From: Acidobacteriaceae bacterium
Lineage (GTDB): Bacteria; Acidobacteriota; Terriglobia; Terriglobales; Acidobacteriaceae
NCBI GenBank assembly: GCA_025352065.1
Contig: JANXUC010000002.1
Coordinates: forward strand, 62,001 to 126,000
Length of the DNA stretch: 64,000 bases
Direction of reading: 5' to 3'
Shown: positions 15,939-24,951 of the stretch, one piece after another
How positions within the stretch are numbered: position 1 is the first letter of the stretch
How the letters are laid out: every line of letters begins with the position of its first letter
Program-made: the position numbers and the translations under genes
Notes under the pieces: model-generated
Told to the model about the DNA's origin: nothing
Databases searched by the model: none
What the model saw: only the letters and a program-made list of their open reading frames with translations

Positions 15939-17219
15939 TCACGGGCACGTCGGCCTTGGAGCCAGTGGGAATGGCGGCTGCGGGGTTTGTGCGAAGTCGA
16001 AGCTGTCGGTCATGTCGTTCGCCCCTGCGTCCCGCGCGGTGAGGGGTTTCAAGCTGAACCGCTCCTCCACCAGCCTCAGAAAAGAGGAGAACTCGTATTG
16101 CGTGTGACTGAGGAAGCCCTGCTTCGCGTAGGGAGAAATGATGAGCAAAGGAACCCGTGGACCCAGTCCGTAGCGGTCCACGCCCGGCGGCGGAACGTGA
16201 TCGTAAAAACCGCCAAAATCATCCCAGGTTACAAAAATCGCAGTGGAATCCCAATCGGGACCCTGCATGATGGCGTTAATTTGCTGCACGGTCCAGTTTT
16301 CGCCTACACACGTACTGTACGGAGGGTGTTCGCTGGTGGGACCGCTGATGACCCAGCTTACCGAGGGTAGACTCCCGTTCTGGGCGTCAAGTACAAACTG
16401 CTTCTCGTCAAGGACGTTGGTATTCCAGAGGGAGCCTCTGCGAATGTGCTTGATCGCATCCAGCGCCGACCACTGGTATCCATCGTGTCCAAAGCCAGGA
16501 GCGTAGTACTTCCAACTGACTCCCGCGCTCTGGAAACTGTCCACAATTGTCTGGAAATCGAAACAAGGGTACTGCTGCGTCGTATTACCGCTGCCGTCAA
16601 TCACGGTAACCGTCGCGGTGTCGTCGGAATCGCATCCCCAGGCGCCATTGGTTACGCCGTTGATGTTCCCAATCGATCCACCCGATTGCCCTGCCATCGA
16701 GTAAAGGTGGTTCGGAAAGCTGGGGCCTTCGAGTGAAGAAAACATCTTGTCCGCCAGCACAAATTGGTGCGCGTAGGCGAAGTAGTTTGGGATATCCGCC
16801 TGCTGCATTTGGGTGTAGGGCAGCAGATCCGACCCCATGGAGACCAGGTCAAACTTGTCCATTTTTCCGCCATCCACGGCCCGATGGGCGTCATTCCATG
16901 TGTGTCCGATGTCGTGAGGAGTTTTGTCCGGTGTGCGACCGAGAGCGATTGTCTGACCGGTGGAGATTGTTCCCGTAGTAGCTCCATCGGCTCCAGGGAA
17001 GGTTCCGAAATAGTTGTCGAAGCTGCGGTTCTCTTTAATGATGAACACGACGTGCTTGATTTTGGTTAGGCCGGTAGGAGGGGGTGGCGGTGGTGGTCCG
17101 CCTCCACTGTTGCTGCTACTACTGCAAGCGGTCCAAACGATGATGACCGCCAAGAAAGACGTCAGCCCCCAAAACAATGGGGATTGGAAGGGGAGTTTCA
17201 TTTGGAAGGGGAGTTTCAT
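15939..17219 (-). CDS. Lipoprotein phosphoesterase (phospholipase C / acid phosphatase family)
   Basis: The 426-aa protein is predicted to be a lipoprotein: hydrophobic segment [17 protein letters not shown], then the lipobox-like VWTAC. A Ser/Gly and Pro-rich linker (seven prolines in a row) follows. The phosphoesterase family domain starts at [20 protein letters not shown], with [30 protein letters not shown] and [14 protein letters not shown] as further family motifs. Such enzymes hydrolyse phospholipids or phosphomonoesters outside the cytoplasm. The first six residues MKLPFQ occur twice because of a perfect 18-bp tandem duplication, so starts at 17219 and 17201 are equivalent. It lies between rplS and rnhB as an apparent insertion. 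Confidence 0.85.
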
Positions 17220-17414: not shown

Positions 17415-17771
17415 CTACTTCGGTCGTTCGACTTCGCGGAGACGCGCAGCCTTCCCGCGCAGCGCGCGCAGGTAATACAGCTTGGCGCGGCGGACCTTGA
17501 AGGACCGTACAACTTCCACCTTATCCACTACCTTGCAGCGGTAGGGGAAAATGCGCTCGACGCCCTGGCCGAAGCTCATCTTGCGGACCACAAAAGATCC
17601 TTGCTGGCCGCCGCGCTGGGCGATGACCAGGCCTTCAAAAACTTGGACGCGCTCTTTGTCGCCTTCCTTGATCTTGACGTGAACGCGGATGGTGTCGCCC
17701 GGTTTGAACGCGGGCAGGTCCGTCCGCTGCGATTTTGCGAGGAGCTTATCGATAATAGGGTTGGTTGACAT
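17415..17771 (-). CDS. rplS: 50S ribosomal protein L19
   Basis: The 118-aa length is typical for L19, which lies at the 30S-50S interface. Conserved stretches [45 protein letters not shown] and [18 protein letters not shown] are present. ATG 17771 starts the conserved N-terminus ([11 protein letters not shown]); longer in-frame extensions are not family-like. The gene normally follows trmD. Here trmD is 5.6 kb further along and in the same orientation, with a plus-strand operon lying between them. Confidence 0.95.
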
Positions 17772-18080: not shown

Positions 18081-19445
18081 ATGGAAACGTTGTCTGCCTA
18101 CGAACCTGCCGGATGGAAAGAATCAAAGAAGAGCCAGAGGTTGCTCGGCAAAGTGGTTGGCTCACTGTTGCTTACGCTGCTGGTTGGGAAGGCTGCCATT
18201 GCACAAGAAACAGCGCCACCACCGGAGTCGTCTGCGGTAGTCATGGCGAAGCTCCTCGAGCAATTGCAGGCCGAGGATGCCAGACTGAAAGACTTGGAAG
18301 CCGAAGTTGCCAGACTCAAGCTGGCACAGGAAGCGCAAGGCACCACTGAGGCGGCCAACGCGGCCGCCATCGCCGCTTCGGTTCCTCCGCCTCCCAGCTC
18401 CGAGCCTCACGAGCACAGCATGCAGATGCCCGGAGGCGGTCCAGTCTTAAAAATCCGAGCCTTCGCCGATTTCAATCTAGGACTCGGCTCCGACGCCAAC
18501 CACCTGATTTTCCCGCTGGTACCGAACGGCACGCCCATTCACAACACGTTCCAAATCGGCGAATTTGATTTATTCCTTTCCTCCCGCCTCTCGAAAACTG
18601 TCAGCGCGGTCGCCGAAATCGTGATCGGTGCGGGCCAAACGAACTACTGGGGTCTGGACATCGAGCGGTTGCAGATCACCTACAAACCCAGTCCCTATTT
18701 CTCCATTAGCGGCGGGCGCTATCACAGCTCAATCGGCTACTACAACACGGCCTTCCATCACGGAACCTGGTTCCAGACCGCGACCGGACGTCCCTTCATG
18801 TTCCTGTTTGAGGACAGTGGCGGAGTCCTCCCGGTCCATCAAGTGGGCGTCACCACCTACGGCCTGGTGCCCCATTCCGGCAAATTGGAAATGCACTGGG
18901 TGGCGGAAATGGGCAACGGGCGTTCCTCCGACCCCACCGGCCAGCCCGTGCAGAATTTCTTCTCCGACAAGAACCACAAGAGCTTCAACCTCGCCGCCTA
19001 CATCAGGCCGCAGTGGCTTTCCGGCCTGCAAATGGGCGGCTCCTATTACCATGACCGCCTGGTCCCTGTCGGCATCCCGCACGTGAATGAAAATCTGGCC
19101 AGCGCCTATGCCGTCTACATTAACTCGGAATGGGAAATCTTCAATGAAGCCGTTTTGATGAACCACAAAATAGACGGTGCCGCCAAGAGCTTCAACAGTC
19201 CGTTGGCCTACACGCAAATCTCCAGAAAATTTGGCGTCTATCGTCCCTACTTCCGGTTCCAATACGTGAACATCCCTAACGGCGATCCGGTCAGCAACTA
19301 CACTGGACGTTATGAAGGGCCCTCCGCCGGACTGCGCATGGACTTCACCGAGTATGCGGCGCTCAAAGTTCAATACAACCGCCTCTATCAGCGCGCGTTA
19401 CCGGCGCGAAACGGGGTTGAAATGCAGGCCGCCTTTACTTTCTAA
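18081..19445 (+). CDS. Porin-like outer-membrane beta-barrel protein
   Basis: The 454-aa protein begins with an extended signal region ending LLLTLLVGKAAIAQ (about residue 41). A coiled-coil segment follows (LLEQLQAEDARLKDLEAEVARLKLAQEAQ, about residues 56-85), then a region of alternating hydrophobic/aromatic strands ending in the terminal phenylalanine (MQAAFTF) typical of Bam-inserted barrels. This resembles coiled-coil-preceded porins of phosphate or sugar type; the substrate is unknown. The start is supported by AGGAGA 7 nt upstream. It leads an operon with a PstS-like protein, a HAMP protein and a small soluble protein. Confidence 0.75.
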   Translation: METLSAYEPAGWKESKKSQRLLGKVVGSLLLTLLVGKAAIAQETAPPPESSAVVMAKLLEQLQAEDARLKDLEAEVARLKLAQEAQGTTEAANAAAIAASVPPPPSSEPHEHSMQMPGGGPVLKIRAFADFNLGLGSDANHLIFPLVPNGTPIHNTFQIGEFDLFLSSRLSKTVSAVAEIVIGAGQTNYWGLDIERLQITYKPSPYFSISGGRYHSSIGYYNTAFHHGTWFQTATGRPFMFLFEDSGGVLPVHQVGVTTYGLVPHSGKLEMHWVAEMGNGRSSDPTGQPVQNFFSDKNHKSFNLAAYIRPQWLSGLQMGGSYYHDRLVPVGIPHVNENLASAYAVYINSEWEIFNEAVLMNHKIDGAAKSFNSPLAYTQISRKFGVYRPYFRFQYVNIPNGDPVSNYTGRYEGPSAGLRMDFTEYAALKVQYNRLYQRALPARNGVEMQAAFTF

Positions 19446-19544
19446 GCGCCATAGTTCTTGCCGCCTGTCTGCGTAGTGTGTTCGTAACGATTGTTTCGAA
19501 GGTTTCGAAGGATTCAAAGTTTTCCTCGAAAGAGAGTCAACCAA

Positions 19545-20024
19545 ATGGCAAGAAACGGATTCTACCTCGCACTCGTCGCACTGGTTTTCGCAGGCAGCCT
19601 GCACGGACAATGCCTGCCCGGCGGCCTCGCTGTCATCGTCAACAAGTCCAACAAAGTGGAGAGCCTCTCCATGGCCCAGCTCCGCAAGCTCATCCTCGGC
19701 GATGTGCGCGCCTGGCAGAATCAGCAGGCGGTCGTCCTGGTCTCTCGCGATCAATCCAGCAAAGTTTTTGCATGCGTTCTCTCGGCGGTCGTGCGCCAGT
19801 CCTCTGGCGACTATCACCGTTACATCATCAACGCTGAATTTCGCGGCGACGAGCCCATGGCGATTCAGACCGTCGACTCCGATGCCAGCGCCGCCCGAGC
19901 CGTCAGCGGAAATCCCGGCGGCCTCGCCGTCGTCGAAGCCAATTCCGCGACTGCCATCTCAGGAACGGTGAAAGTCATTCGCATCGAAGGCAAAGCCGTC
20001 GGTCAACCCGGATACCCGCTCTAA
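19545..20024 (+). CDS. Small PstS-like (phosphate-binding superfamily) periplasmic protein
   Basis: The 159-aa protein has a signal peptide (MARNGFYLALVALVFAGSLHG). A short type II periplasmic-binding-protein-like fold follows: LAVIVNKSNKVESLSMAQLRKLILGDVRAWQ and VVLVSRDQSSKVF match the N-terminal lobe of PstS-like proteins. It is about half the length of a complete PstS, so it may bind ligand as a single lobe or have lost transport function. The start ATG 19545 is about 100 bp after the porin stop and preceded by GAGAG; the upstream open frame is not signal-like. It is probably the ligand-sensing part of the 18.1-21.2 kb operon. Confidence 0.75.
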   Translation: MARNGFYLALVALVFAGSLHGQCLPGGLAVIVNKSNKVESLSMAQLRKLILGDVRAWQNQQAVVLVSRDQSSKVFACVLSAVVRQSSGDYHRYIINAEFRGDEPMAIQTVDSDASAARAVSGNPGGLAVVEANSATAISGTVKVIRIEGKAVGQPGYPL

Positions 20025-20066
20025 TTTCGGACGCTCAACCACCACCACACAGCAACAGGGAGGCAT

Positions 20067-20990
20067 ATGAGACCCACAATTAAGAACAAGCTCTATGCAG
20101 GCTTCGGCGCCGTACTGGTTTTGATGGGCATCGTGGCCGCCATCGCAACCCACTCGGTACTCGGTCTGCGCACCAGCGCTCTAGAAACCGCTCGCGTCGG
20201 GGACCGCCTCGACTCCATCTCGCTGGAGATTCAGGTTCATAACCTCGAAGCCCAGCGCAAAGTCAAAAGCTATTTGGCCGATTCCCAGCTACCCGGGACA
20301 CAGGAAACCGAAGAAACCAACATCAGCGAAGCCCAATTCGAAATCCACGAGATCGAAACCCTCGCCGCCAAAGCCGTACACCTCGCTCCCACTCCCGAAG
20401 GTAAGGCAAAATTTCAAGTCACTCTGGAAGCCGCAAAAGCCTATGCCGCTTCCCTCGCAACCGTAGTGCAGGAAGCCACGAAAGGTGCCACCGACGCAGC
20501 CACAGCCGCGCCCTCCTCTCCCGCTAAAGTTCCGTCTGGCACGCCCATCCCCCCATCGACCGTCTCCGCCGCTTCCCTCGTCACCTACGAAGCCGCCGCC
20601 CTGCACCTCAGCGAAAGCGCGGAAGATGGCGAACTCGCTGGCCGCGACGCCAGCCAAACGTCCCAGCACAACGTCGAACGCATCAGCCAGCAATCCGTTC
20701 CACTCGTCGTCGGAATCTCCCTCGTCGCGCTTTTCGTTGCCCTGGTCGTCAGCTTCTCCCTCTCGAGAGCCATCCTGATTCCCGTCCAGCACCTCGGAAC
20801 GGTCGCCGAAAACGTCAGCATGGGCAACCTCCAAATTTCCGTGCACCGCTTTTCCAACGACGAAATTGGTGATCTCGCCGACTCTTTTAGCCGCATGGTC
20901 ACTGCCGTCCGCTTCTTTCAGTCCGAAGTCGAAGCATCGCAAACCGATGCCGCCCAAGCCGCCCTGGCGAAGGGAGCAAGCGCACAATGA
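20067..20990 (+). CDS. Two-TM HAMP protein lacking a signalling output domain
   Basis: The 307-aa protein has TM1 at about residues 11-31 (FGAVLVLMGIVAAIATHSVLG), an Ala-rich periplasmic helical domain with a Pro/Ser-rich insert, TM2 at about 213-233 (VPLVVGISLVALFVALVVSF) and a HAMP domain (SRAILIPVQHLGTVAENVSMGNLQISV...DEIGDLADSFSRM). It stops right after HAMP. There is no MCP signalling hairpin, kinase or cyclase, so output must pass to a partner, plausibly the 73-aa protein encoded with a 4-bp overlap downstream. GGGAGG stands 5 nt before ATG 20067. Confidence 0.8.
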   Translation: MRPTIKNKLYAGFGAVLVLMGIVAAIATHSVLGLRTSALETARVGDRLDSISLEIQVHNLEAQRKVKSYLADSQLPGTQETEETNISEAQFEIHEIETLAAKAVHLAPTPEGKAKFQVTLEAAKAYAASLATVVQEATKGATDAATAAPSSPAKVPSGTPIPPSTVSAASLVTYEAAALHLSESAEDGELAGRDASQTSQHNVERISQQSVPLVVGISLVALFVALVVSFSLSRAILIPVQHLGTVAENVSMGNLQISVHRFSNDEIGDLADSFSRMVTAVRFFQSEVEASQTDAAQAALAKGASAQ

Positions 20991-21208
20991 GCAGCCTGGC
21001 AGACAAAGTGATTGCTCTAACCAAGCCTTATCTCGGGCTAGCCACCGATGCATTCCTAACCCGGCAATGTGGACACTTGAAAATCGAAATAAGCGAACTC
21101 ACCCAGGCCCATCTCAAAGACCTGGCCCCCTGGATACAGCGTTCCGGAGCTCTGATCATGGATGCCGGGAAAGCTGCTGAACTGGCCAAGAAATTGGCCG
21201 CCCTCTAG
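20987..21208 (+). CDS. Small cytosolic protein coupled to the HAMP gene
   Basis: The 73-aa protein is unrecognised, with no signal peptide or TM. Its start overlaps the HAMP stop (ATGA), implying translational coupling. It is helical and Ala/Leu/Lys-rich with one Cys-His pair (RQCGHLKIEI) and a C-terminal KAAELAKKLAAL helix. Being fused by coupling to a HAMP protein without an output domain, it is a candidate cytosolic output or adaptor subunit. Confidence 0.65.
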   Translation: MSSLADKVIALTKPYLGLATDAFLTRQCGHLKIEISELTQAHLKDLAPWIQRSGALIMDAGKAAELAKKLAAL

Positions 21209-23366: not shown

Positions 23367-24176
23367 TTACAGATCAGATCGCAGTTTCGCCAGTATTTCC
23401 CGGTCTTCCTTTTCCAGAGCGACTTGCTTCAGCAGGTCTGGGCGGTTCCTCAGTGTTTTTTCGAGCGCCGTCCGCCTGCGCCAGCGGCGGATTTGCTGGT
23501 GGTCGCCGGACACTAGCACATCTGGCACTGGTATGCCGCGAAACTCCGCGGGGCGCGTGTAATGGGGATAGTCAAGTAGGCCGCCGGAGCCGCAGGTGGA
23601 ATCTGCTCCAGTGGTTCCCGAGCCGAGTTGTCGCGTTGCTGTGAAAGACTCCTGCCGAGAGGAAGCTTCGTTGCCCAACGTTCCGGGGATCAGCCGGGTA
23701 ACCGCATCCACGATCACCGCCGCTCCCAATTCGCCGCCGCTCAGGACATAGTCGCCGATGGAGATTTCGCGGTCGGCCAATGCGGAGCTGACTCGTTCGT
23801 CGACCCCTTCGTAGCGGCCGCAGATTAGGACGATAGTTTCCAGGGCCGCGAGTTTAGAAGCCAATGCCTGCTCGAAACGCTCGCCCTGCGCTGACAGCAA
23901 AATCACCGATTGCTTGGCCTCTCGATTGAGGCGGGATTCACGCGAGGCCAGATTTAGCCCATCCACGCAAGCAAAAATAGGTTCTGGCTTTAGAACCATG
24001 CCTTCGCCGCCGCCGAAAGGACGGTCATCGACGGTGCGGTGCTTGTCGCTTGTGTACGCGCGCAGGTCATGCAGGCTGGTTTCCATCAAGCCAGCTTCAC
24101 GGGCTCGCCGGACGATGCCGAAATCGAGCGGACCGCGAAAGAAATCGGGGAAGATGGTGAGGATGTGAAAGTGCAT
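23367..24176 (-). CDS. trmD: tRNA (guanine37-N1)-methyltransferase
   Basis: A 269-aa SPOUT methyltransferase that makes m1G37 in tRNA with SAM and prevents +1 frameshifting. Family motifs: FDFGIVRRA-like N-terminus ([22 protein letters not shown]), [17 protein letters not shown], and the trefoil-knot region [13 protein letters not shown]...[28 protein letters not shown] short Thr/Gly-rich insert follows RQESFTATR. It is part of the conserved rpsP-khpA-rimM-trmD order on the minus strand. Confidence 0.95.
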
Positions 24177-24264
24177 AGGTTGCGGCTGTCGGCCATCGGC
24201 TATCAGCTGTCAGCCTTCTGCTTGCGGCGAACAGCATTTGACTACTTGAAAACACTCTCTAAAT

Positions 24265-24303
24265 TTGTCATTCCTCAGGGCTGAAGCTGCTCGGAATGAC
24301 AAA
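24265..24303. repeat. Dispersed repeat A, copy 5 (palindromic form)
   Basis: TTGTCATTCC...GGAATGACAA forms a symmetrical hairpin between rimM and trmD. Two A ends face each other around AGGGCTGAAGCT. Confidence 0.7.
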
Positions 24304-24342
24304 CTCTAGAGTAGTCTTTTCAACAAACTTTAGAGTTCAAAT

Positions 24343-24951
24343 TTATGGCTCTTCCTGGTTCGCCTTCCGCTGCGCTTCTTTTTCTTCCGGCGTCAGAGGA
24401 GCGTTGATTTCCAACAACCCTTCCGGCAGGCGCATGCGGATCTGCTTGTTAGCAACGTCAATCCCGGCAGCGCCGCCTTCAAGAAACGCCTCCGCTAAGG
24501 GTAGCAGGTGTTCGCGGGCATTCTCCGGAGCGTCTTCCGCGCCGATTCCTCGAACCACCAGCAGCGGGGCTTCGCCAGCTCCAAATTGCACATCGGTGAC
24601 GGTCCCGACCCTTCGTCCGTGATCGAGAACTTCGCATCCGACCATGTCGCTGATATACGCTGCGCCGGGTTCAAGCTGTGCACGTTCGGCCCGTGGAATC
24701 TGCAACTCGCAGAGCAAGAACGCTTCCGCGTCGTTGATGGAGTCGACGCCTTTCAATTTTAGAACGAGATAATCTTTGTGGGGCCAGCAATCTTCCAGTT
24801 CGACTTCGCGACGGTTACCCTTGCCGAGGGCGTACATGCGTAGCCCTGGAATGAATCGATCTGGATGGCTGGTACGAGGCTCGACGGCAATCTCGCCGCA
24901 GCGGCCCTGCGTTTTTAGAACGCGGGCGATGGTGATGAAGTCGTCGCCGAT
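24343..24951 (-). CDS. rimM: Ribosome maturation factor RimM, without a canonical start codon
   Basis: RimM helps 16S processing and 30S assembly. The conserved N-terminal domain begins FITIARVLKTQGRCGEIAVEPRTSHPDRF (from about 24936) and the PRC barrel follows (ISDMVGCEVLDHGRRVGTVTDV). The frame is open back to a TGA at about 24988. Between that stop and the conserved start there is no ATG, GTG or TTG. The first ATG (24837) would delete the first 38 residues. AGGAG stands 7 nt before an ATC codon at 24951, which is taken provisionally as the start. A repeat B copy sits directly upstream and may have replaced the original start. It gives about 202 aa, a normal RimM length. Confidence 0.75.
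   Translation of the reverse strand: MGDDFITIARVLKTQGRCGEIAVEPRTSHPDRFIPGLRMYALGKGNRREVELEDCWPHKDYLVLKLKGVDSINDAEAFLLCELQIPRAERAQLEPGAAYISDMVGCEVLDHGRRVGTVTDVQFGAGEAPLLVVRGIGAEDAPENAREHLLPLAEAFLEGGAAGIDVANKQIRMRLPEGLLEINAPLTPEEKEAQRKANQEEP

Follow-up and report, generated by a model that had tools for sequence, protein, structure and literature searches.

The element considered here is a set of four genes in a 64,000-nucleotide stretch of Acidobacteriaceae DNA (assembly GCA_025352065.1, contig JANXUC010000002.1, positions 62,001 to 126,000 of the forward strand; the whole stretch is called the window). The genes, at window positions 18081–21208, encode an outer-membrane porin, an exported protein resembling about one lobe of PstS (half-PstS), a membrane receptor with a periplasmic four-helix bundle (4HB) and a HAMP domain, and a soluble protein of 73 amino acid residues (aa). 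The set recurs in nine genomes, and in all of them the receptor ends shortly after HAMP. A sequence-only reading of the window had proposed a relay from the outer membrane to the cytosol, with the 73-aa protein as partner of a receptor that lacks an output. On balance, we slightly favor a reading of this kind, namely an envelope-spanning sensor with a detached output, in which a signal would pass from porin to half-PstS, to the 4HB-HAMP receptor and on to a 73-aa protein resembling the STAC domain. The earlier proposal stands in part: the output-less receptor is conserved and the 73-aa protein tracks it, but the HAMP half is not novel and the porin and half-PstS are not exclusive to the set.

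A recurrent module with an output-less receptor

The four open reading frames (ORFs; Table 1) all lie on the + strand. They are separated by 99, 42, and −4 nt, the last value being an ATGA overlap of the receptor stop and the 73-aa start, and they bear out the gene layout and coupled end that had been read from the letters. The 4.25 Mb genome holds a single copy. All nine genomes with a strong match to the 73-aa protein (the window, L157, L236, L239, L248, L249, L250, L251, and L252) carry the four genes, in the order porin, half-PstS, HAMP receptor, 73-aa gene. In eight of these modules the receptor stop and the start of the 73-aa gene share 4 nt; in the remaining one, a 1-nt gap separates them. 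The porin of the L236 module is frameshifted in the assembly at about 6640, and the half-PstS of L251, missed by gene picking, is present as an open frame. With the whole set seen nine times, the arrangement in the window is beyond chance, and the anticipated co-occurrence of the four families holds in nine genomes. The carriers of the conserved set are some soil Acidobacteria.

The receptor has two transmembrane segments, a periplasmic bundle like 4HB_MCP_1, the HAMP domain, and a short conserved tail. In Pfam searches, HAMP is found at residues 232–282 (E 1.5e-6), and the protein ends about 25 residues further on; the 4HB_MCP_1 match, residues 4–147, is just below the Pfam cut-off. No Pfam domain was found after HAMP, and the signaling domain of a methyl-accepting chemotaxis protein (MCP) is absent. 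In the eight other module receptors HAMP likewise lies close to the C-terminus, with no further Pfam domain, and it is thus the sole cytosolic domain in all nine. A nine-row alignment shows the same end point and conserved tail throughout, together with a Pro/Ser-rich insertion in the window receptor that has no counterpart in its eight relatives. An MCP truncated locally, in the window alone, can be dismissed, the output-less form being kept in nine genomes.

The 73-aa protein is conserved at 44–54% identity in eight other genomes, and nucleotide differences between close relatives fall mainly at third codon positions, a purifying pattern. Because of this conservation and of the third-position differences, the 73-aa ORF is, judged by its sequence, a genuine gene. 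These observations bear on the idea of decay, in which a chemoreceptor or kinase would have lost its output and the 73-aa ORF would be a by-product. Outputs are indeed present in near relatives of porin and receptor (a PP2C at L155, whose receptor is about 41% identical in alignment, and an MCP at L159); nevertheless, nine genomes share the receptor end point, the tail, and the 73-aa gene under a purifying pattern, and we regard decay as highly improbable and close to refuted.

The distribution of the 73-aa family was followed with profile A7, a 10-row alignment run against 131 stretches, among them the 80 porin loci described below; since the profile includes the members it recovers, it is informative for absences only. 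It places the family at 10 sites, the nine modules and L253, each beside a receptor without a recognised output, and at none of the 131 stretches beside a receptor with a built-in output. The 73-aa protein is thus a companion of the output-less receptor, as had been supposed. At L253 (6792–8375), a weaker, 77-aa STAC-like member follows a 446-aa receptor with no output domain in Pfam, and this may be another type of output-less receptor that has a partner.

These relatives were reached solely through a scan with the porin, in which a 17-row alignment was run against 84,980 species genomes and gave 162 relatives, the best 80 of which were retained as porin loci. L157 was the first found with four genes, and its profiles led to L236, L239, and L248–L252. 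A single-sequence search with the 73-aa protein in 150 genomes of the order recovered itself alone; in 396 genomes of the phylum, 108 gave a match at E ≤ 1, of which the window's own alone was strong and the next had E 0.0056. Peptide scans of genome and viral contigs gave nothing, a scan of plasmids gave one weak match, inside a transporter gene, and the L157 copy had no match in plasmids and phages. Profile searches at E 0.001 found matches in 2 of 16, 3 of 61, and 8 of 257 genomes, in overlapping sets. One extra match of a two-row profile (E 7.5e-4) covered 37 residues inside a long ORF and was judged to be chance. In the 150 genomes of the order, the porin was found in 19 (three with weak N-terminal matches only) and half-PstS in 33.

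Table 1. The four genes of the module in the window, with the basis for each assignment.
Product	Position	Strand	Basis
Outer-membrane porin, 454 aa	18081–19445	+	OprP/OprO-like fold in predicted model
Half-PstS, exported, 159 aa	19545–20024	+	Matches to PBP_like_2 and TIGR02136
4HB-HAMP membrane receptor, 307 aa	20067–20990	+	HAMP and 4HB_MCP_1, Pfam
Soluble helical protein, 73 aa, STAC-like (Af1502-like)	20987–21208	+	Family alignment, predicted model

Resemblance of the last two genes to Af1503/Af1502

A described system resembles the last two genes. In PMC4834066, Af1503 of Archaeoglobus fulgidus is a receptor without an effector whose sole cytosolic part is HAMP; Af1503-like receptors are often coupled to proteins of 60–90 residues; and Af1502, of 68 aa, is encoded by the fourth gene of the operon and is translationally coupled to Af1503. 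In the module, too, HAMP is the sole cytosolic part, the receptor gene is coupled by overlap to a gene for a protein in this size range (73 aa against 68), the partner is a helical bundle in the model, and it is the fourth of the set. The differences lie in the surroundings: that paper describes an archaeal family with an MgtE-type metal transporter in the operon, whereas the module belongs to Acidobacteriota and has a 4HB sensor, a porin, and half-PstS, with no inner-membrane transporter. Against PDB sequences at E 0.1, the receptor matched two chains, neither labelled Af1503, with which no direct comparison was made. By analogy, we claim that the receptor and the 73-aa protein would work as Af1503 and Af1502 do.

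The structural evidence comes from a model of the 73-aa protein (four rows, pLDDT 88.3) with helices at residues 4–30, 40–57, and 60–72 and a nine-residue linker at 31–39. The model has the STAC arrangement, in which about nine residues link the two hairpins of a four-helix bundle, with the first hairpin drawn as one helix; a bundle fold by itself is weak evidence. A second structural aligner placed Af1502 (5a1q) first by a wide margin, with Z 7.4 and a root-mean-square deviation of 2.8 Å over 68 of 73 residues at 12% identity, while the other 24 rows with Z ≥ 2 reach at most 3.9. This match gains weight from the context shared with Af1502, namely size, coupling, and a HAMP receptor without an effector.

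Several results weigh on the other side. Foldseek ranked 5a1q thirteenth at a non-significant E of 8.7, and the second aligner itself cautions that Z under about 13 may reflect a common arrangement of helical bundles. No sequence link was found between the 73-aa family and either 5a1q or the STACs of SLC5-type proteins. The STAC motif LGPx(x)A is imperfect, the window protein having LGLATD, with the strict form in 2 of 10 family members and LGP in 7 of 10. These are the grounds for supposing that the 73-aa protein has no relation to STAC and serves HAMP as a dedicated adaptor, its likeness to Af1502 being a convergence of small helical bundles. Searches of Pfam, NCBIfam, and PDB sequences with the protein gave nothing beyond chance-level matches, and a profile comparison of the family with SLC5-type STACs (RpuS of pNGR234b, recognised by reading L264, and eight relatives) gave nothing above shuffles. 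However, in a control, the SLC5-type profile recovered a 606-aa histidine kinase chain (10ed) and missed 5a1q; the sequence test of STAC kinship therefore has little power. The authors of PMC4834066 themselves state that sequence searches fail to connect Af1502 with other STACs. Given the gap between Z 7.4 for 5a1q and 3.9 for the rest, and the match to Af1502 in context, size, and coupling, we consider an unrelated adaptor unlikely, though it deserves serious attention. The 73-aa protein is a candidate STAC.

An input pair that serves several outputs

The porin has a signal region, a periplasmic coiled-coil helix (about residues 51–83), and, in an AlphaFold2 model (pLDDT 77.8), a barrel of 16 strands. 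The best structural matches of the model are the 16-stranded barrels OprP (2o4v) and OprO (4rjw), both at VIA Z 27.2, followed by PorB at Z 25.0, and the shape is of the OprP/OprO type. Pfam gives no match for the window porin itself; Porin_O_P matches three of 17 family members, the window porin not among them, with a best E of 8.5e-4. Half-PstS matches TIGR02136 (PstS) at E 1.8e-10 over model positions 121–236 of 295, and PBP_like_2 at E 3.1e-5, with 24.3 bits, slightly below the Pfam cut-off of 27 bits. With 159 aa, it amounts to about one lobe and is not a two-lobed, full-length PstS. Among ten aligned half-PstS proteins, Cys23 and Cys77 occur together in the module clade (the window, L157, L236, and L239) and in L155, and five more distant proteins do not have the pair; a Cys23–Cys77 disulfide may form. 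The genome of the window has a second half-PstS gene (L101, 4935–5420, contig G000 C19), preceded by a 550-aa ORF and followed by a gene for a 501-aa exported protein, TPR-like by eye. The only pointers to phosphate as the ligand are the likenesses to PstS and to OprP/OprO.

The porin and half-PstS reach well beyond the module. Half-PstS follows the porin immediately in 79 of the 80 porin loci; the exception is L229, where the contig stops 45 bases past the porin match. Fifty-one of the 79 continue with a same-strand gene of at least 150 aa, and these 51 genes with those of the window, L236, and L239 make up a set of 54 examined with Pfam. Thirty-eight have 4HB_MCP_1, from which it follows that the pair serves 4HB receptors; HisKA and HATPase_c are found in 33 each, MCPsignal in five, GGDEF and EAL in three each, and SpoIIE in one. 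The usual output behind the pair is thus a kinase, an MCP, GGDEF/EAL, or a PP2C, built into the receptor. From these architectures, porin, half-PstS, and 4HB receptor together are a predicted input set that takes different attached outputs; in the module there is no such output, and the 73-aa gene stands where it would be. Since other outputs, MCP included (L084/L159), are the rule behind porin and half-PstS, the pair does not depend on the output-less receptor, and a finding that the earlier proposal had itself named as counting against it applies in part; the four-family set still recurs. By record title, the porin also occurs in Verrucomicrobiota, Gemmatimonadota, Planctomycetota, and Pseudomonadota, although titles of metagenome bins can mislead, as is suggested for L223.

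A sister input set, L155 (5986–11270), lies in the same genome as module L236. There, genes for porin, half-PstS, a fusion of 4HB with a SpoIIE-type PP2C, a GGDEF protein (matching the SiaD model at E 8.3e-42, under the cut-off of that model), and slr1658-type and slr1659-type proteins follow in a row. The locus has the same input with an output like partner switching.

In a porin tree, a quick tree whose careful search is unfinished, the window falls in a supported set of 12 made up of eight modules, two kinase loci, the PP2C locus L155, and L156, which is labelled "other" and has a kinase-like gene truncated where the contig stops. The modules do not form one clade; the module label changes three times, at least two of these changes being forced by supported branches, and the porins therefore record no single origin of the output-less form. 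Either outputs or porins were exchanged during evolution. Pairwise distances correlate between half-PstS and receptor (r 0.92) and between receptor and 73-aa protein (r 0.75, P 0.004), and not between porin and 73-aa protein (r 0.07); shared genome ancestry inflates all such correlations. The scattered modules, the uncorrelated porin, and this inflation count against a single four-part relay, and the first two would fit porin and half-PstS as mere neighbors of a receptor that senses something else. So would the 28 of 79 loci that lack a same-strand gene of transducer size directly after half-PstS, some at contig ends and some facing convergent genes. Set against mere neighborhood are the near-invariant succession of porin and half-PstS, the frequency of 4HB sensors among the next genes, and the half-PstS–receptor correlation, and we find it rather improbable.

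At the window locus, 0 promoter-like sites were counted against 1.5 expected and 5 terminator-like sites against 6.0 expected, and an Rfam search gave no match. The set lies between rplS (17415–17771, − strand) and trmD/rimM (23367–24837, − strand), in an interval of about 5.6 kb that also contains genes with S4 and DUF4440 domains. As rplS and trmD/rimM are commonly adjacent, the set may have been inserted between them. A PF04185 phosphoesterase gene (15939–17219, − strand; E 2.8e-71) is nearby, on the other side of rplS.

A candidate relay and its known relatives

From the composition and order of the genes, the overlap, the absent output, and the fold resemblance, we infer the binding steps, direction, ligand, and effector of a relay as follows. 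The OprP/OprO-shaped porin would admit a small anion, phosphate or a similar oxyanion being the first guess. In the periplasm, half-PstS would bring the ligand, or its absence, to the 4HB bundle of the receptor. A single lobe like half-PstS cannot by itself close on a ligand, and so the receptor may provide the second face. The 4HB-HAMP receptor, as its family would predict, relays the change to the cytosol. The 73-aa STAC-like protein, probably made in step with the receptor through translational coupling, would dock on HAMP and carry the signal to an effector, by analogy with Af1503/Af1502.

Other described systems share parts of this scheme. In the sensor kinases CbrA, CrbS, and RpuS, a small helical domain also stands between the membrane part and signaling, but their STAC is part of a longer chain, with an SLC5 transporter on one side and a kinase on the other, whereas the 73-aa protein stands alone, and Pfam finds neither SLC5 nor kinase in any of the four window proteins. 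Removal of STAC from CbrA and CrbS made no obvious difference to growth, according to PMC5715377. The Acidobacteriota chemoreceptors and kinases behind the porin/half-PstS pair share these families and the 4HB sensor but have a fused output and no 73-aa gene; the SiaABCD-like L155 differs by its 4HB-PP2C fusion, followed by GGDEF and the slr1658/slr1659-type regulators. YfiN of Pseudomonas aeruginosa has a HAMP domain. It belongs to YfiBNR, which, compared by description (PMC4655355), likewise joins an outer-membrane part, a periplasmic protein, and an inner-membrane receptor in one relay; there, however, a lipoprotein, YfiB, takes part, YfiR is no half-PstS, and YfiN has an output of its own, with which it acts on c-di-GMP.

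These relatives also raise the question of whether uptake, and not gene expression, is what the set controls, with the receptor and STAC-like protein acting on a transporter that porin and half-PstS supply. STAC and Af1503-like receptors accompany transport components (PMC4834066), the STAC domain of CbrA docks beneath its SLC5 transporter (PMC13022988), and porin and half-PstS are themselves proteins of transport type. The module, however, contains no inner-membrane transporter, and the relatives of its receptor drive kinases, MCP, or PP2C; control of uptake seems doubtful to us.

The suggestion that no described system has this composition is overtaken for the HAMP/73-aa half by Af1503/Af1502 (PMC4834066), and this half belongs to a kind already known. 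It holds for the set of porin, half-PstS, HAMP, and STAC-like protein, no description of which was found in the literature searched, subscription journals being mostly outside it. Three features were not met in that literature and are apparently new: such a pair in bacteria, an input made of porin and half-PstS, and the interchange with fused outputs.

More broadly, we put forward tentatively, at somewhat less than even confidence, a bacterial split receptor with an exchangeable trans-envelope input, its output fused in most lineages and replaced in one group by a detached, STAC-like reader of HAMP. At stake are how an output-less HAMP receptor signals and what STAC does. Nine bacterial modules with a defined input and relatives of known output type are at hand, and chimeras between them could show what the STAC-like protein replaces. 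If the proposal is true, covalent fusion would not be needed for HAMP to pass a signal to a soluble protein.

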